Virus record (IMG/VR): IMGVR_UViG_3300030085_005071
Coordinates: 39,716 to 76,704 of that record
DNA length: 36,989 bases
Strand: one strand, 5' to 3'
Origin: a virus
A model generated the notes under the pieces. The model ran no database searches. It saw nothing but the letters and a program-made list of their open reading frames with translations, and had not been told where the DNA came from. This document shows positions 4,421-29,473 of the stretch, piece by piece. The translations under genes were made by a program, and so were the position numbers. Within the stretch, counting starts at the first letter, position 1. Each line of letters starts with the position of its first letter.

Positions 4421-5101
4421 ATGAAAGAAATTTTTAATGAGAAGGCAAAGCAAGCGATTAAAGAAACTTTAAGTTTAAATGAAGCGCTATCAGCACAACA
4501 AAAGCAATTTAGTTTCAATGTAGACCTTTTAAGCGGTGACAATTTTCAAAATCACCTAGAACTTTACCAAGGATACATTAAAAACTTCAATGAAGTAAGT
4601 GCTAAACTTGACACTGCTGACAGATCTAATGTTAATTGTAACCACTCAGAGTTTAGATCGCTAAAATTAGACGAAACTTTCAATATGAATGGTGTCTACT
4701 TGCATGAACTTTATTTTGCTAACATTGGGGATCCTCACTCAGAAATAAAAATGGATTCACTTTCTTACATGAGATTATCAAGAGACTTTGGTAGTTTTGA
4801 CAATTGGCAAAAAGACTTGATGGCATGCATGGCAGCATCACAATGCGGCTGGGCAATAACATACTTAAATACGTACACACAGACATTCATGAATGCTGTT
4901 GTTGATTTACACTCTAATAACGTCCCTGCTGGATGTTTTCCAATTATTGTACTTGACGCATGGCAACATGCATACTACAGAGATTATCTTAAAGATGTAG
5001 ATACTTATACACGTGCAATGATGAAAACTTTAAAGTGGCCTATCATAGAAGAAAGAATCAAAAAGGCAGATAAGATAATTCAAGTTTTACGAGGAAACTA
5101 A
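4421..5101 (+). CDS. Iron/manganese superoxide dismutase
   Basis: 226 residues, within the Fe/Mn-SOD range (about 190-230). The family disproportionates superoxide to oxygen and hydrogen peroxide. All four metal ligands can be placed: H45 in NHLELYQGY (with gateway Tyr at about 52), H95 in YLHELYF, D179 and H183 in LDAWQHAYY. That last block is the SOD signature, with Gln in place of the common Glu. The sequence is otherwise divergent. Fe versus Mn preference cannot be set by eye. Its stop overlaps the next ATG (TAATG). It may protect infected cells or phage Fe-S proteins from oxidative damage. Confidence 0.88.
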   Translation: MKEIFNEKAKQAIKETLSLNEALSAQQKQFSFNVDLLSGDNFQNHLELYQGYIKNFNEVSAKLDTADRSNVNCNHSEFRSLKLDETFNMNGVYLHELYFANIGDPHSEIKMDSLSYMRLSRDFGSFDNWQKDLMACMAASQCGWAITYLNTYTQTFMNAVVDLHSNNVPAGCFPIIVLDAWQHAYYRDYLKDVDTYTRAMMKTLKWPIIEERIKKADKIIQVLRGN

Positions 5102-18689: not shown

Positions 18690-19460
18690 ATGGAAAGAAC
18701 TGTTCTTGAAACATATTTTCGAGATATTAAAAATAAAACTAGTTTACTTACGCGTGAACAAGAAGTTGAATTAGCAAAGCGCATCGAAAAAGGTGACAAA
18801 AGAGCTAGAGATAAGATGATTGAATCGAATCTTCGGCTAGCAATATCAATAGCAAAGCAATACGCAAGGTACGGATCTACGCTAGAAGACTTAATTCAAG
18901 AATCTAATATTGGTCTCATGAAGGCTGTGGAAAAATTTGATTGGCGAAAAGGTTTTAAATTTTCAACTTATGCATCATGGTGGATCAAACAGGCAGTGAC
19001 TCGTAGTTTAACTTCGAACAGCACACTTCTTAAAGTTCCGTCCCATACTTTAGCAAATGCAAGAAAAATTTGGCAACTCAAGCAAGATTACATGGAAGAA
19101 TTTGGCGTTGAACCTTCTATGGAAGAAATATGTGATGCCCTTGACATGACAGAAAAACATGTCAGATTAGCTATTTCATCGATTAGAAGTAAAAACATTG
19201 CTAGTATCGACCAGCAAATTGGTGAAGAAGGTGCAAGAACACTAGGGGATATTATTCCAGACAATTCATCAACAAACATCGAGCAGATACTAGATAATAA
19301 AATTATAAGACAGAAGATAATTAAAGCGCTTGGCTCTCTCTCAAAAAGAGAAGAACTAGTTCTTCGTTTGAGATTCGGTCTCGATGAAGTACTAGAAGAC
19401 GACAAAAACATTTACGATATCAACGAAAACAACGAAGGAGTTAACAATGGCAATGCCTAA
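18690..19460 (+). CDS. Sigma-70 family factor lacking region 4.2
   Basis: 256 residues. Region 1.2 lies at the start, then region 2 with the core-binding and melting segment (LIQESNIGLMKAVEKFDW, about 68-85) and FSTYASWWIKQAVTR (about 91-105, -10 recognition). Region 3 lies at about 137-170. Region 4.1 begins with LSKREELVLRLRFGL (about 217-231). At that point the family normally continues into the -35-binding helix-turn-helix; instead an acidic/Asn-rich tail (EDDKNIYDINENNEG) ends the protein. The next gene, overlapping by 14 bp, encodes a separate helix-turn-helix. It probably directs host RNA polymerase to late or middle phage promoters. Confidence 0.92.
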   Translation: MERTVLETYFRDIKNKTSLLTREQEVELAKRIEKGDKRARDKMIESNLRLAISIAKQYARYGSTLEDLIQESNIGLMKAVEKFDWRKGFKFSTYASWWIKQAVTRSLTSNSTLLKVPSHTLANARKIWQLKQDYMEEFGVEPSMEEICDALDMTEKHVRLAISSIRSKNIASIDQQIGEEGARTLGDIIPDNSSTNIEQILDNKIIRQKIIKALGSLSKREELVLRLRFGLDEVLEDDKNIYDINENNEGVNNGNA

Positions 19461-21738: not shown

Positions 21739-23322
21739 ATGTACTATTATTTTCTTGTCTTTCTTCTGTTTGCATGCAATGATTATGCGATTAAAAACGA
21801 ATTAAATATCGGCCCTGAATTAGTTGTTTATCCGGAAAATATTGATTTTGGTCACCTCAAGTCAGGAACTGAATCTGGTCAAGAGGTATTCGCGGTAATT
21901 AACGCTGGTGACGAAGACTTGGTTATAAGTCACCCAGCTCTTATTTCAAATACTGCTAGATTTAGTCTGGACCCAGATTTACAAGAAAATTATACAATCT
22001 TGCCCGGTGATACGCAAGAATTTAACATTTACTATACACCTGAGACATATGAAACAGGTGAAGCTATCATCAGCCTTGTATCAAATGACGAGGATGAGAA
22101 TCAGTACGAAATACCAGTGACAGGTTTTGGAGATGCCCCAGTTATATCTGTAACTCCGGAGACATTTGATTACGGGCAAATAAGTATAGGTTGCGATAAT
22201 GAAGAAAGAATTACTATTCGCAACGTAGGAAACCTAGAGTTGACTGTTGATAACATTACACAAATGGTGACGTCACCACCGGACATCATCATGGAAATGG
22301 GATCTTTACCTCCACCACCATGGCATTTAGCGCCAGGACAAGAAGTTGATTTTCTCGTATCTTATATACCGATTGATATTAGCTATGATGAAAGTGTAAT
22401 TAGAGTAGAGAGTAACGATCCTATACTACCGCTAGTTGAAGTTGTGCAGTACGGAGAAGGAGACGTTGAACATTGGCATACACAAACGCATGTCCAAGAA
22501 GAAATTGCACTTTTAGATGTACTTTTTGTGGTCGATAATTCTGGGTCAATGAATATATTTCAGCAAGAGTTAGGAAGTCAAATGAATGCATTCATGAATG
22601 TATTTGACAGTTCGGGAGCAGATTATCATCTTGCTGTTATAACTACAGATGAAGCTCGATTTAGACAATACGATGGTTATACTTGGATCGATCAGACTCA
22701 CAGAGATCCTGTTTTATGGATGCAGAATGTAATAGCTTCAATAGGTATTCACGGAAGTGGTTTTGAAAGAGGGATAGAGATGGCCAAGTACGCACTTGAA
22801 GATGACGCAGCACCCGGAAAAGACTACAATAGAGAAAACGCAACCATGGTCATTATATACGTATCAGATGAACCAGATCATTCGCAAGGAGGATTTACTT
22901 CGTACCTTAGTTTCTTTGACAATTTTAAAATCTCACCGAGCTTGATGCGTCAATTTGCTGTCATTGGCGATTATCCAACTGGGTGTCACTTTCCTTACTT
23001 GAATCGTTCTAGAAATATTACTTTTGGTGGCGGCTACTATGAGATGACCCAAAGATACAACGGAGACTGGTATTCAATATGCGCTGTAGATTGGGGGCAG
23101 CAAATGCAAAACTTAGCAAACACTGTCACAACGCAACGATCTTTTAATATAGATGAAAGTGATCCGATTGAATCAACAATAATAGTAACAGTTAATGGAC
23201 AAGCTAGTAGTGATTGGGCATACGATTCAATTACAAATTCTGTCATATTTAATGAAGCAAGTATACCTGAACCAGGTCAGACAATTATTATAGAGTATGC
23301 AGTGTGGGGCTGCGGGGGATGA
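21739..23322 (+). CDS. Exported lipoprotein-like protein with ASH-type repeats and vWA domain
   Basis: 527 residues. A short hydrophobic N-terminus ends LLFAC with Cys13, a fair lipobox, so it may be lipid-anchored. Two Ig-like ASH/Hydin (choice-of-anchor D type) domains follow at about 28-131 (with VVYPENIDFG) and 135-240 (ISVTPETFDYG). A von Willebrand A domain begins near 258, with the MIDAS motif D-x-S-x-S as D266-N-S-G-S270 in VLFVVDNSGSM. A beta-type C-terminal domain with Cys closes it. This architecture is typical of surface proteins in Myxococcota/Bdellovibrionota-like bacteria and odd for a phage. It is coupled by ATGA overlap to a protease gene. A host-surface or superinfection-exclusion role is inferred. 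Confidence 0.85.
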   Translation: MYYYFLVFLLFACNDYAIKNELNIGPELVVYPENIDFGHLKSGTESGQEVFAVINAGDEDLVISHPALISNTARFSLDPDLQENYTILPGDTQEFNIYYTPETYETGEAIISLVSNDEDENQYEIPVTGFGDAPVISVTPETFDYGQISIGCDNEERITIRNVGNLELTVDNITQMVTSPPDIIMEMGSLPPPPWHLAPGQEVDFLVSYIPIDISYDESVIRVESNDPILPLVEVVQYGEGDVEHWHTQTHVQEEIALLDVLFVVDNSGSMNIFQQELGSQMNAFMNVFDSSGADYHLAVITTDEARFRQYDGYTWIDQTHRDPVLWMQNVIASIGIHGSGFERGIEMAKYALEDDAAPGKDYNRENATMVIIYVSDEPDHSQGGFTSYLSFFDNFKISPSLMRQFAVIGDYPTGCHFPYLNRSRNITFGGGYYEMTQRYNGDWYSICAVDWGQQMQNLANTVTTQRSFNIDESDPIESTIIVTVNGQASSDWAYDSITNSVIFNEASIPEPGQTIIIEYAVWGCGG

Positions 23323-23822
23323 AGAAAGCTTGGCCGTTAACTGCTGCTTTATTCTTAGGATTCTTAATAGGTTTAACCATTAAGAACGTTTACAATTTAA
23401 CTGCAAGACAACCTAATCAATGGAAAGATAGACCGGTTATAGTTAACTGCGCTGGTGACGACATTAAAGAATCAACAATAAAAAGGGCAGTTAATTTTTG
23501 GCATGAAAAAGGTGAAGAAATATATTTTTATGAGTATAGATTTATTGAGAGTGTATGCAAAGATGTTAAATTAATGGACGGGTTTATTATTATTACGACT
23601 TCAAAAAATGCTAAAAATAGTGATCTCACCTTAGCATCAACAACAAGATCAGCTAGGCTAGGCGTAGTTCAGTCAGCAATTATAGAATTCAAACCAGGTA
23701 CACATAATTTTATTTTACTATTAGAGCATGAGCTAGGTCATGCCTTTGGCTACACACACCGAAAGATTCCTGGTCATATCATGCACCCTTACTATGACAT
23801 GATGGGGGATAAATTTTGGTAA
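23319..23822 (+). CDS. Membrane-anchored metzincin-type zinc metalloprotease
   Basis: 167 residues from ATG 23319, which overlaps the vWA stop; a GTG at 23304 is less likely. An N-terminal hydrophobic segment (WPLTAALFLGFLIGL, about 5-19) acts as signal or anchor. The zinc site is complete: H137-E138-L-G-H141-A-F-G144-Y-T-H147, followed by Met155 in HIMHP as the Met-turn. This is the HExxHxxGxxH form of matrixin/astacin-like metzincins. There is no obvious pro-domain Cys switch, though C44 and C80 are present. It would act outside the cytoplasm, perhaps on the partner protein, on host surface proteins, or at release. Confidence 0.88.
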   Translation: MKKAWPLTAALFLGFLIGLTIKNVYNLTARQPNQWKDRPVIVNCAGDDIKESTIKRAVNFWHEKGEEIYFYEYRFIESVCKDVKLMDGFIIITTSKNAKNSDLTLASTTRSARLGVVQSAIIEFKPGTHNFILLLEHELGHAFGYTHRKIPGHIMHPYYDMMGDKFW

Positions 23823-25570: not shown

Positions 25571-25945
25571 ATGCTAGCTAAAATAATTTCTTTTTTCTCA
25601 CAAGATATGCTGTACGGAATTGGTTTTTTAATAATTGGACATGCGATGGGATGGTTTGCAGGAAATTCTCAATTTGTTTGGGCGTACTGGGAGGATAAAC
25701 CTATTTTGGCTACACTTTTATTTGGCACACCTGCAGGATTGGCTTTTTGGTACGGTTCAAAATATTGTTTTGCTGCGACTGGTGGAGAGCTTTGGAGTGT
25801 ACGTTTTATCGCTGCAGTTTTCTCTTACACAGTTTTTCCAATCATGACCTGGTATTTTCTGAATGAGTCAATGTTCACACCCAAAACAATGATGTCAGTA
25901 TTTTTAGCACTTTCTATTCTTTTTGTCCAGATTTATTATAATTAA
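25571..25945 (+). CDS. Four-helix membrane protein
   Basis: 124 residues from ATG 25571 (CGGAG 10 bp upstream; a GTG at 25562 is too close to it). Four hydrophobic segments are seen at about 9-31, 43-60, 70-90 and 98-122, with GWFAGNSQF and FGTPAGLAFWYGSKY between them. I recall similar membrane proteins in marine phages with no known function. It begins the operon that continues into two histidine kinases and a response regulator, so it could be a sensor partner. Confidence 0.7.
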   Translation: MLAKIISFFSQDMLYGIGFLIIGHAMGWFAGNSQFVWAYWEDKPILATLLFGTPAGLAFWYGSKYCFAATGGELWSVRFIAAVFSYTVFPIMTWYFLNESMFTPKTMMSVFLALSILFVQIYYN

Positions 25946-25965
25946 TAATAAGACCGAGGATAAGC

Positions 25966-26967
25966 ATGAAAGCTAAAAAAGGGGAATGGTTTTCTTTAAA
26001 ATGGGAACCAAAGGATTATTATTGTAAAGAATCTTATTTACAACTGACACATTGTCCAGTTTTTGTTTGTGCAGAAAGAGACACAGAATCGATATCGTGT
26101 GACTTAGAAAATAAGTACCCGAAACTTTCATTGGCATCAATAAAGCGCACATCAATGTTCATAAGTTTAAAGAACGGTATTAAGGTTCCGACTCATTATC
26201 AGATCGGAATGTTAATGCCAGGAGAAGATTTAAAATACGATACATGGTTGCAAAGATATTTCAATATTGATGATGAAGTTTCTGAACAAATTAAAAATAA
26301 AAACTTATTACAGCAAAAAAGTATTTACTTAGAACATACAGCAAAAATTATAAGACATGATATGCACAGTGGTATCAACACTTATATTCCGAGAGGCCTG
26401 TCAATACTACTTAACAAGTTACCTGAAGAGGTGATAAAAGAACACAAATTAAGTCTAGGGCTACGACTTCTGGAAGAAGGTCTTAAGCACTCACAAAAAG
26501 TTTACAAAGGTGTTTATGAGTTTACCAATTTAGTAAAAAGAAAACCAGAATTTAATGTCGAGAATCATAATGTAACTAAAGTTCTCAGTCAACATCTTGA
26601 AAGTACTTCTTACAAAGACAAGGTTAATATTTCGGAATTATGTGACATCGAAATTAATAGCACATTATTTACTATTGCTATTGATAATTTTATTAAGAAC
26701 GGCATTAAGTATAACAATAATTTTTGCCCTAGGATTGAAATATTCATGAACGATAATAATGAGATAGTTATACAAGATAACGGTATAGGTATGTCACAAA
26801 TGGAATACGACATGCAATGCATGCCTTACATGCGTGAAGAAGTAAGTGATGAAAAACCACAAGGACTAGGAATCAACATTGCAAATTCAATCTTAGAGGA
26901 ACACGGTTTTAAAGTTAGTGTTGAAGAGTTAGAAACGGGGACAGCAATAAAAATAAGAGTAAGATGA
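25966..26967 (+). CDS. Soluble histidine kinase
   Basis: 333 residues. The N-terminal 110 residues (with several Cys: LTHCPVFVCAE) are an unrecognised sensor-like domain with no membrane segment. The dimerisation helix carries the H-box RHDMHSGINTYIPRG with H131. The HATPase domain has an N-box with D240/N241/N245 (AIDNFIKNGIKYN), G1 box DNGIGM (271-276) and G2 box QGLGI (299-303). All residues needed for ATP binding and phospho-transfer are present. The core is strikingly similar to the kinase encoded next. It probably phosphorylates the regulator at 27906. Confidence 0.9.
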   Translation: MKAKKGEWFSLKWEPKDYYCKESYLQLTHCPVFVCAERDTESISCDLENKYPKLSLASIKRTSMFISLKNGIKVPTHYQIGMLMPGEDLKYDTWLQRYFNIDDEVSEQIKNKNLLQQKSIYLEHTAKIIRHDMHSGINTYIPRGLSILLNKLPEEVIKEHKLSLGLRLLEEGLKHSQKVYKGVYEFTNLVKRKPEFNVENHNVTKVLSQHLESTSYKDKVNISELCDIEINSTLFTIAIDNFIKNGIKYNNNFCPRIEIFMNDNNEIVIQDNGIGMSQMEYDMQCMPYMREEVSDEKPQGLGINIANSILEEHGFKVSVEELETGTAIKIRVR

Positions 26968-26968
26968 A

Positions 26969-27919
26969 ATGAGTATTGATAAATTAATAGCAAAATTTAA
27001 ATTCATGAATATTTTGGTTGATAAGATAAGCACACAGTCAAAAGTCTGCTTGATTGTTTCTCTTTTGATACTTGCTAGCTTGTTTGCAATTCAAAGCCTG
27101 ATTGTGTTTCGTGTTTATGAGCCCAGCTACAATCTTGCTCTAATAGATTATATTTGTGTTGTTATTTTTATGATACCTTTTTCTGTCTTTATAAGGGATT
27201 TTTTACTTAGTGTCAAAAATAATGAGAAAGAGTTATTAAAAGAAGTTCTAGAAAAAAACACTTACTTAGAACACGCTGCAAAAATACTTCGCCATGACAT
27301 GCATAGTGGGCTCAACACTTACATTCCAAGAGGAATAAGATCATTAGAGAGAAGATTGCCAGAAGAATTGGTAAAAGAGCACAAGCTTGAATCACCACTT
27401 AGACTTTTAAAGGAAGGCTTGGTCCACTCTCAACAGGTCTACAAAGGTGTATACGAATTTACTAATCTTGTCAGGAAAGATGCAACGCTTCATTTAGAGT
27501 TAGTAGATATTGGGGAGGCACTCGAGACTCACTTAAAAAGAACAAGTTACTGCGATCAAGTTTTATTATCAGAAGACTTACCCACAATTAATATCAATGA
27601 GGCACTCTTTTGCACAGCAATTGACAACTTGATCAGGAACGGCTTGAAGTACAATGACAGCAAAACTAAACAAGTCAGAATAGAAATGATAGATACACAT
27701 ACACTTGCAGTCATAGATAATGGTCGTGGTTTGTCTAGTCAAGAATTTAAAGAATTATGTAAACCCTATACACGAAAAACTAATCAAAAAGAAATAGGCT
27801 CCGGATTAGGATTAAACATCTGCGTCGCCATACTTAAGGAACATGGGTTTAGCATATCTGCGCAAAAACTGCAACAAGGCACAATGATAAAAGTGGGGAT
27901 CAATAATGGAAATGATTAA
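26969..27919 (+). CDS. Membrane histidine kinase, paralogue of the preceding kinase
   Basis: 316 residues. Two transmembrane helices at about 25-48 and 58-80 are separated by a loop of some ten residues, so there is hardly any outside sensor. The H-box LRHDMHSGLNTYIPRG has H109. The N-box AIDNLIRNGLKYND, G1 DNGRGL and G2 GSGLGLNI are intact. From the H-box through HSQQVYKGVYEFTNLV it is nearly the same as the upstream kinase, showing a tandem duplication with different N-termini. It overlaps the regulator by 14 bp. No clear ribosome site is seen. Confidence 0.9.
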   Translation: MSIDKLIAKFKFMNILVDKISTQSKVCLIVSLLILASLFAIQSLIVFRVYEPSYNLALIDYICVVIFMIPFSVFIRDFLLSVKNNEKELLKEVLEKNTYLEHAAKILRHDMHSGLNTYIPRGIRSLERRLPEELVKEHKLESPLRLLKEGLVHSQQVYKGVYEFTNLVRKDATLHLELVDIGEALETHLKRTSYCDQVLLSEDLPTININEALFCTAIDNLIRNGLKYNDSKTKQVRIEMIDTHTLAVIDNGRGLSSQEFKELCKPYTRKTNQKEIGSGLGLNICVAILKEHGFSISAQKLQQGTMIKVGINNGND

Positions 27920-28343
27920 TTCAATTTTACTAGTAGACGATGAGTGTTTATTTCATCTGGTATTTGAAGATGCGTGTAGTCTTCTTGACATAACACTTAA
28001 TTTAGAATCAATTGATTCTGCCGATGAAGCTGCTAGGTTATTTGATGCATGGAAGTCTACACCAGAAAAGAAACCGGACTGCGTTTTTGTTGATTTAAAT
28101 ATCATAGGCTCATCATTTAACGGCATTGAATTAATTCGTAAGATTAATTTTGAATATGGGAATGGTGTGGTCATTGGTATTATATCTTCTTCAGCAGACA
28201 GTGAAGAAATAGCAAAGGCTGTCCAAGCTGGTGCACAATTTTGGATTGTCAAGTCAGACGATATCGAGCCGAGACTAGAAGAGTTTAAAAAAGATTACAG
28301 CGGTTATGTGGATAGAACAGGAAGTTTTAAGGTATATAAATGA
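27906..28343 (+). CDS. Single-domain response regulator
   Basis: 145 residues, a stand-alone receiver domain. The acidic pocket is D11/D12, the phospho-acceptor D63 (FVDLN), the switch Ser94/95 (ISSS) and the conserved Lys116 (IVKS). There is no DNA-binding or enzyme output domain; a short charged tail follows. Like CheY or Spo0F, it must act by binding a target or passing phosphate on. It overlaps both the membrane kinase and the next motif-bearing gene (ATGA), so all are co-translated. Confidence 0.9.
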   Translation: MEMINSILLVDDECLFHLVFEDACSLLDITLNLESIDSADEAARLFDAWKSTPEKKPDCVFVDLNIIGSSFNGIELIRKINFEYGNGVVIGIISSSADSEEIAKAVQAGAQFWIVKSDDIEPRLEEFKKDYSGYVDRTGSFKVYK

Positions 28344-28903
28344 AAATAACAAGAAGACAATTAAAGAATATTGTTCTAAGGGAGTTTAAGGAAACCGGGC
28401 AGAATTTTTACGATATATTTTCCGATACTCCTCCACCTGAAGCTGTACAAGATCGAGGTGATGGTGGCGGTAGAATTCATCAGGTAGTATTTGTTGGTAA
28501 CGACTATAATGATCCTAGTTCTTGGCGGTCAATTCCAGTAAACATGAGCATTTTAAATGCAATGAGAAACGCTTTTGATTCTCTTTCTAGAGAAACGCAA
28601 AGAACGCTATATTCTTATATGGGTGGTATGATTACAGTACCTGATAATGAGAAAGCCAGTTTAAATGAGTTAGGAAAGTTGTATCGTGAAATGTTAAATA
28701 GTCAATTTGAGACAGTTCCGCAACCTAATATTAGAGAATATTACGCAGTTTTTCACCCAAGTTTTGCAGCTCATGGAAAAAATACACCAGAAGGCCAAGA
28801 AAAAGCATTAGCGTTTTACAGATCAGTTGCAGGATACATGCCTGACAGAGAACTGCTTAGCGAGTATGAATTCATAATGCATAGTTCGAGTGCGCTATAT
28901 TGA
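28340..28903 (+). CDS. Unidentified protein with capsid-targeting-like N-terminus
   Basis: 187 residues. The N-terminus MKITRRQLKNIVLREF is the clear form of the shared motif, with L-R-E at 13-15. The rest has Asp/Gly-rich and helical parts (MSILNAMRNAFDSLSRETQR), without a known domain. ATG overlaps the regulator stop. It may be an internal head protein or, by position, a target of the regulator. Confidence 0.65.
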   Translation: MKITRRQLKNIVLREFKETGQNFYDIFSDTPPPEAVQDRGDGGGRIHQVVFVGNDYNDPSSWRSIPVNMSILNAMRNAFDSLSRETQRTLYSYMGGMITVPDNEKASLNELGKLYREMLNSQFETVPQPNIREYYAVFHPSFAAHGKNTPEGQEKALAFYRSVAGYMPDRELLSEYEFIMHSSSALY

Positions 28904-28906
28904 GTC

Positions 28907-29473
28907 ATGAATTTTAGCAAAGAAGATATACAACAGCTTTTACATCTAGCTAAAGAGAGACGCGTTTATCTTGAAGGTAACATCATAAAAATCATCAAGA
29001 CAGACAATGAAGATTTTAAAAAGTATCTTAAGGAAGCAAAAGAAAAGGATAATGAAACCAGAAAGAAACGATTAGAAATCACAAGGCAAGTTCAAGATCA
29101 GAACAAACAATTGGCAGCGAAAGCAAAAGAAAATGAGTCGCTGATGTTAGAGCTTAAGGAAGCGTTAGAACAGGCAGAAGGTGCAAAAGAATCTGCATTA
29201 AATGATCTAGACCTCATGCAAAAGAAAACTCAGTTTGAACTAATTGGTAACATTGTCAACGTTGCACTCTGGATCATTGTAGGTGTAGGAGTCATGACGA
29301 CAATACTATATATGGTTGCATTATACACCAAAGGCTCCGGAGCTGACACTACGCTTATTGGAAACACATGGTCTAACTTATTAGGCATACTATTAACAAA
29401 CTCTTTTAGCATAATAGGTACTATTATGGGTGTTAAGTACGCTAGTGAAAACAGTAAAAAGGAAGAAAAGTGA
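28907..29473 (+). CDS. Coiled-coil membrane protein of unknown function
   Basis: 188 residues: a charged coiled coil over about 28-112, then two transmembrane helices (about 116-140 and 158-178) joined by KGSGADTTLIGNTWSN. Proteins with a similar LIGNTWSNLLGILLTNS-like C-terminus recur in marine phages as I recall. No motif gives a role. No good ribosome site; it starts 3 bp after the previous stop, so coupling is likely. Confidence 0.65.
   Translation: MNFSKEDIQQLLHLAKERRVYLEGNIIKIIKTDNEDFKKYLKEAKEKDNETRKKRLEITRQVQDQNKQLAAKAKENESLMLELKEALEQAEGAKESALNDLDLMQKKTQFELIGNIVNVALWIIVGVGVMTTILYMVALYTKGSGADTTLIGNTWSNLLGILLTNSFSIIGTIMGVKYASENSKKEEK

Follow-up and report, generated by a model that had tools for sequence, protein, structure and literature searches.

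A phage-borne two-component signaling cassette and its proposed membrane effector, D2

Introduction

Few ways are known in which phages sense their circumstances, examples being the lysis inhibition of T4 and peptide signals. Lysis inhibition in T4 involves the holin T and the antiholins RI and RIII (PMC11413866, PMC6832632). In Gram-positive bacteria, LytSR-LrgAB ties a two-component system to holin-like membrane proteins and murein hydrolysis (PMC2996381, PMC3507848). The cREC domains of jumbo phages are described as never occurring with histidine kinases (PMC7824862), and a literature search, made mostly without subscription journals, found no phage pathway running from a kinase through a receiver to an effector. 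The cassette described here is a variant of two-component signaling found in phages, and it comes with a new family of proposed effectors, D2.

Gene content and viral origin of the locus

The stretch of DNA analyzed, referred to as the window, is 36,989 nucleotides long and comprises bases 39716-76704 of a viral contig of 76.7 kb. The order of the open reading frames was confirmed, with a small membrane protein, the histidine kinases HK1 and HK2, and a lone receiver forming one tight operon (Table 1), in which the membrane protein and HK1 are separated by 20 bp, HK1 and HK2 by 1 bp, and HK2 overlaps the receiver. An earlier note made from the letters of this DNA had described these four frames, with H131, H109, and D63 as intact catalytic residues; all are present, and the three residues are invariant in the aligned relatives. 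The case that would have undone that note, a cassette lying in a host region, was also examined. The DnaB, ribonucleotide reductase (RNR), PolIII alpha, and GroEL of the record all belong to phage families, and 13 of the 20 related large contigs carry a terminase. The nearest relative by identity of the receiver (88%) and D2 (89%), L084, has the same gene order as the window on a 236 kb contig that includes a terminase.

The boundary drawn in the earlier note (25571-28343) falls too early, as it omits D2, a constant component and the likely output of the cassette. In this phage, the link to D2 is hidden by an unrelated, non-constant gene inserted between D2 and the receiver. A different gene is inserted in L084, sharing an N-terminal motif with the insert of the window. 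The small membrane protein had been counted as a member of the cassette and is instead an occasional accessory, found in 11 of 160 loci: it immediately precedes the first kinase in this phage and its close relatives, stands just after D2 in a few others, and is unlinked elsewhere. It matches no family in Pfam, PHROG, or NCBIfam. An anti-phage defense system was rejected, since none of the PADLOC models was matched by five proteins of the cassette region at E<=0.01.

Table 1. Features of the cassette region, in window coordinates.
Feature	Position	Strand	Description
Small membrane protein	25571..25945 (start 25562/25571)	+	about four hydrophobic helices
HK1, soluble histidine kinase, 333 aa	25966..26967	+	N-domain 1-100; DHp with H131 in RHDMHSG; CA with N, G1, and G2 motifs
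HK2, histidine kinase, 316 aa	26969..27919	+	N-terminal hydrophobic helices aa 28-46 and 57-75; H109 in RHDMHSG
Single-domain receiver	27912..28343 (ORF from 27906)	+	D11/D12, D63, ISSS, and K116 conserved
Inserted gene	28340..28903	+	start MKITRRQLKNIVLREF; non-constant, between receiver and D2
D2, proposed effector	28907..29473	+	N-domain aa 1-51; coil ~52-108; hairpin ~112-141 and ~148-180; Lys-rich tail

Several neighboring genes were noted in passing. A helix of about 15 residues, M[KR][IL][ST].RQLR.LI.E, opens at least 11 proteins of this record that are otherwise different (window 28340, 29470, 30654, 31555, 32359, and 32747; L003 3495, 4506, 8627, 14533, and 17799); it also occurs in the relatives L084 and L092 and looks like a common N-terminal tag for targeting or packaging. 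Window 21739-23322 encodes a lipoprotein with choice-of-anchor-D and von Willebrand-type parts that resembles Bdellovibrio adhesins and myxobacterial CglD, and it adjoins a matrixin-like peptidase with a signal anchor (23304-23822). The pair lies near the cassette in L084 and L092 as well and may hint at a host of the predatory-bacterium or myxobacterium type. The window also encodes a phage Fe/Mn superoxide dismutase (4421-5101) and a sigma-70 family factor comprising regions 1.2 to 4 (18690-19460). In 13 loci, a full-length phage DnaK is found near the cassette (e.g., L119 5117-7003, L068 3136-5007, and L072 5933-7798).

Histidine kinases with a constant core and exchangeable sensors

HK1 and HK2 belong to the histidine kinase (HPK) superfamily, as they contain the H-box His, the ATP-binding N, G1, and G2 motifs, and a DHp hairpin with a CA fold. 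Pfam HATPase_c matches both above the cut-off (6.8e-12 for HK1 and 9.3e-14 for HK2) and was detected in the kinases of 68/68 relatives. Pfam HisKA (PF00512) matches neither HK1 nor HK2 at E<=1, nor any of the 68 relatives at E<=0.01. The AlphaFold2 model of HK1 (pLDDT 82.8), compared with the PDB by Foldseek, has its best fold match in HK853 (2c2a/3dge; E 6.7e-10). Searches of IMG/VR yielded at least 254 relatives of HK2 and at least 314 of the receiver. The earlier note had proposed a search for such kinases with adjoining receivers; in the kinases of the family, RHDMHSG is found in 279/279, DNGxG likewise in 279/279, the G2 motif in 275/279, and the N box, by a strict pattern, in 230/279.

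The family combines a constant core of about 200 residues with differing sensors. In the 94 loci whose upstream sequence was long enough, one recognized kinase is encoded in 68 and two in 25. With membrane helices assigned by hydropathy only, some sensors are a two-helix membrane hairpin with or without PAS or GAF domains, others have two membrane helices flanking a periplasmic loop, and others lack a membrane part altogether. PAS domains were found in 41/68 of the relatives' kinases and GAF domains in 18/68. The flavin redox sensors MmoS, Aer, and NifL are among the nearest PDB matches of the PAS domains in one relative's kinase. A periplasmic loop is seen only in the second kinase of two-kinase loci, and loci with such a kinase tend to encode an exported protein in the interval between the two (16/21 vs 0/73 loci without such a kinase). 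This exported protein, family c6 (L056 6756-7385 and 17 other loci), precedes the periplasmic-loop kinase, contains a coiled coil and a Bacteroidota-like signal peptide, and is likely a periplasmic co-sensor or spanin-like protein. A YceI-like lipid-binding gene, family c16, often lies directly upstream of the first kinase (L012 362-898, L033 4326-4850, L050 3888-4412, and others), and a YceI domain is also matched by Pfam within one kinase of alignment A2.

The two kinase cores of the window had been taken for near-duplicates. HK1 and HK2 are 44% identical overall, and HK1 lies in its own old clade of soluble kinases common to several relatives, so that a recent tandem duplication is ruled out by the kinase tree. 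Redox sensing through a Cys-rich N-domain of HK1, as had been proposed, was likewise not supported, as C30 alone is conserved among the four Cys of that domain.

A single receiver without an output domain

The receiver probably starts at the second ATG, because most relatives begin with MI[ND]SILL. Pfam Response_reg matches residues 7-117 of 145 (8.6e-12, above the cut-off), and no other domain was detected. Its sequence is nearest to the NarL type and lacks the HTH. The paired Asp, the phosphorylatable Asp, the Ser/Thr, and the Lys of a single-domain response regulator are all in place: D11/D12, D63, S94-S96, and K116 are invariant in alignment A4, and the motifs occur in 91-94 of 94 loci. 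The receiver is strongly conserved, the 35 diverse members of alignment A4 being 69-85% identical to the window copy. Operon structure and conserved residues together make it very probable that this is a phage-borne two-component system in which the kinases transfer phosphate to the receiver.

Exactly one receiver of this family is encoded in each of 50 large contigs, in keeping with the earlier proposal that two sensors feed one receiver. Pfam detected no further receiver in the 20 large contigs scanned or in this record, and additional receivers continuing a relay were therefore rejected.

D2 and the conserved unit

A D2 homologue is present in 149 of the 160 fetched loci, normally overlapping the stop codon of the receiver (usually as ATGA), and D2 follows the receiver in all 121 non-redundant loci holding both. 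When loci were seeded with D2 and joined with the two loci from bacterial genomes, kinase, receiver, and D2 were found together in 76/81, and in the remaining 5 D2 lies close to a contig edge. This strict co-occurrence defines the conserved unit as kinase(s)-receiver-D2. The cassette is carried by hundreds of uncultured large-phage contigs of up to 430 kb. Among 50,697 records of deposited phages, no relative of the receiver or D2 was found, and the kinases gave generic matches only (26-33% identity).

The AlphaFold2 model of D2 (pLDDT 82.9) consists of a small N-domain, a helix of 107 residues, and a second helix. Lys-rich flanks place both ends of the protein in the cytosol by inference. Each of the 276 D2 readings from phages has the membrane hairpin at its end. 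Of 135 sequences, 134 have a coil of 45, 52, 59, 66, 73, 80, or 87 residues between two conserved anchors; the remaining one has 98 (87 + 11). When the coil was measured more strictly, 55 sequences gave no reading, and with looser anchors all but 2 could be read. The lengths thus differ by multiples of seven, and at least 21 changes of length are counted on a tree built without the coil. Since arbitrary insertions would not yield whole-heptad lengths, the pattern of lengths indicates selection on the coil's register, the mark of a signaling coil.

Known functions were not recovered for D2. No alignment column exceeds 10% His, and a role as a histidine phosphotransferase (Hpt) was rejected for want of a conserved His. 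Against known holin families D2 stays below the cut-off, with weak matches to Phage_holin_9 only (best 0.005, in 3/47 members), and hhalign revealed no relation to the neighboring holin-like families c4, c8, and c11. A known holin is accordingly unsupported by Pfam, PHROG, or profile comparison. A fold search returned nothing significant.

Without a conserved His, hand-over of phosphate to D2 is unlikely, and binding by the receiver is the simplest link; the earlier suggestion that the receiver acts by protein contact fits this picture. The link to D2 is well supported, and it is likely that the receiver acts on D2.

A bacterial copy with a D2 N-domain fusion

Only two matches were returned when 84,980 bacterial and archaeal genomes were scanned. 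One (L164) is a phage sequence in which a terminase-like protein was recognized by reading. The other (L165) lies in a Bacteroidota MAG amid genes that read as chromosomal, encoding secreted proteins with a sorting tail, a transporter, and a phosphonatase-like hydrolase. L165 5709-9090 encodes a PAS kinase, a receiver with 71% identity to that of the phage, and then a protein in which the D2 N-domain is fused to a complete histidine kinase where the coil and the hairpin would be. The D2 N-domain was found in no other of 390 genomes of the same order, and neither a cassette common in bacterial chromosomes nor many decayed phage copies were seen. Capture from a phage is the probable origin of this cassette, the other being a bacterial ancestor.

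Because the fusion follows the same receiver, on this single MAG contig, the D2 N-domain looks like a swappable input module that takes the signal of the receiver and can drive another output. The fusion suggests that the input domain of D2 is movable to other outputs.

Lysis genes near the cassette

An endolysin (PG_binding_1 with an amidase or GH19 domain) is found nearby in 51 of 121 non-redundant loci, and some lysis-type gene within 6.5 kb in 65 of the 121. Of 50 large contigs, 32 were usable, and in 17 of these the receiver has a PG_binding_1 protein within 6 kb, vs 3.6 expected from random placement; 20,000 random draws never gave more than 12, a test that is too optimistic because the contigs are related and not independent. 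In the 430 kb contig, the endolysin lies 3.0 kb from the receiver. Six contigs have an endolysin of a separate family, M15, and in 5 of them its distance to the receiver is 1.0-2.3 kb. No terminase, the gene used as a control, comes within 6 kb of the receiver. The endolysin is downstream on the same strand in 21 loci, upstream on the same strand in 18, and upstream on the opposite strand in 12, so the association probably formed more than once.

The record of this phage holds two endolysin-type genes about 41 kb or more from the receiver, and the close relatives of the window have theirs at 8-60 kb. A lysis role for this copy therefore rests on homology and on other branches. Lysis timing, as the earlier note had conjectured, gains genome-context support from the relatives, and no known endolysin lies near the cassette in the phage's own clade; the steering of host behavior, offered as the other outcome, found no specific support. 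A role in lysis is moderately supported, and from the clustering of endolysins in relatives the chance that lysis timing is the purpose of the pathway may be put at about even.

Proposed pathway and its alternatives

In the proposed mechanism, one or two kinases, built from the constant DHp-CA core and exchangeable sensors, would autophosphorylate on His, an activity suggested by their conserved residues. The inputs in the window would be the soluble N-domain of HK1 and the two-helix membrane hairpin of HK2, and in relatives PAS, GAF, or periplasmic domains. The phosphate would pass to the single lone receiver, which has no DNA-binding part, and the phosphorylated receiver would bind the cytosolic N-domain of D2, as suggested by strict co-occurrence, operon overlap, and the natural fusion of that domain to a kinase. 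D2 would then relay the change through its register-locked coiled coil into the membrane hairpin, a step to which the heptad rule points. Lysis would in this way be timed or delayed by the energy state of the host or by periplasmic signals. That the pathway is self-contained, with a dedicated membrane output that most likely times lysis, is as far as we can judge an evenly balanced proposition. More tentatively, a lineage of large phages may time the burst of its host by gating D2 through the receiver, with PAS, GAF, cytosolic, and periplasmic sensors reporting the energy state or arriving phages.

The same pathway might end in a D2 that acts as a membrane scaffold or superinfection-exclusion protein, altering the envelope on phosphorylation of the receiver and thereby the entry of other phage DNA or host membrane traffic. 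This is rather unlikely, even though D2 is present in every complete receiver locus while endolysins are near in about half of the testable contigs, D2 is unrelated to known holins, and no known lysis gene is near in this phage's clade; the clustering of endolysins in three main arrangements and the M15 peptidases within 2.3 kb would be left unexplained. More doubtful still is a receiver that mainly intercepts host signaling, joining a host phosphorelay or occupying the partners of a host receiver, with D2 merely as a tether. Known lone receivers serve as links in phosphorelays and as hubs (PMC5964349), and conservation at 69-85% in A4 looks as if maintained by a conserved partner, but the heptad rule and the fusion of the D2 N-domain to a kinase mark D2 as the partner that carries the signal. 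An ordinary captured host system, a passenger without a special role, is very improbable: two-component genes are common in bacteria and a few phage families have kinase-like domains (phrog_857), but here the catalytic motifs and the three-gene set are kept across hundreds of contigs, and a single bacterial chromosomal copy turned up in the genomes scanned, with no other in its order.

If the cassette does time lysis, phages would encode a counterpart of lysis inhibition that is driven by kinases, with D2 as a new family of signal-gated effectors. A complete and widespread chain with a membrane output would show phages running their own classical kinase signaling during infection, and the way from a host condition that is sensed to a decision by the phage would be open to direct testing. 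As a new protein family with a strict heptad rule, D2 offers a ready model for coiled-coil signaling.

Comparison with known systems

The phage kinases share with HK853-RR468 (PDB 3dge/2c2a) the DHp-CA fold and the H, N, and G motifs, and the receivers share the active-site residues. The phage family differs in having no Pfam HisKA match and a family-specific H-box, RHDMHSGxNTYIPRG, and in being phage-encoded, with a single-domain receiver and a pathway that ends in a membrane protein. In chemoreceptors (MCPs), coil lengths vary by whole heptads and the register is under selection. The whole-heptad changes of the D2 coil resemble those of these proteins and of sensor kinases with signaling coils; unlike in MCPs, to which no sequence relation was seen, the D2 coil runs from a cytosolic input domain toward a membrane hairpin.

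With CheY, Spo0F, and Caulobacter MrrA (PMC5964349), the receiver has in common the lack of an output domain, the convergence of several kinases on one receiver, and, probably, output by protein contact. It differs from these single-domain regulators in being nearest to the NarL type, in its co-encoded membrane partner, and in being the sole receiver in the contigs scanned. The proposed sensing of the environment to set lysis time through a membrane protein resembles T4 lysis inhibition, whereas the T4 antiholins bind directly, with no phosphorylation. LytSR-LrgAB likewise links a two-component system to holin-like membrane proteins and to murein hydrolysis. It differs in that LytR regulates transcription by binding DNA, whereas the phage receiver has no DNA-binding domain and its membrane protein is encoded within the same operon. 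Like cREC, it is a receiver-like domain of large phages, jumbo phages in the case of cREC, but it differs in adjoining histidine kinases.
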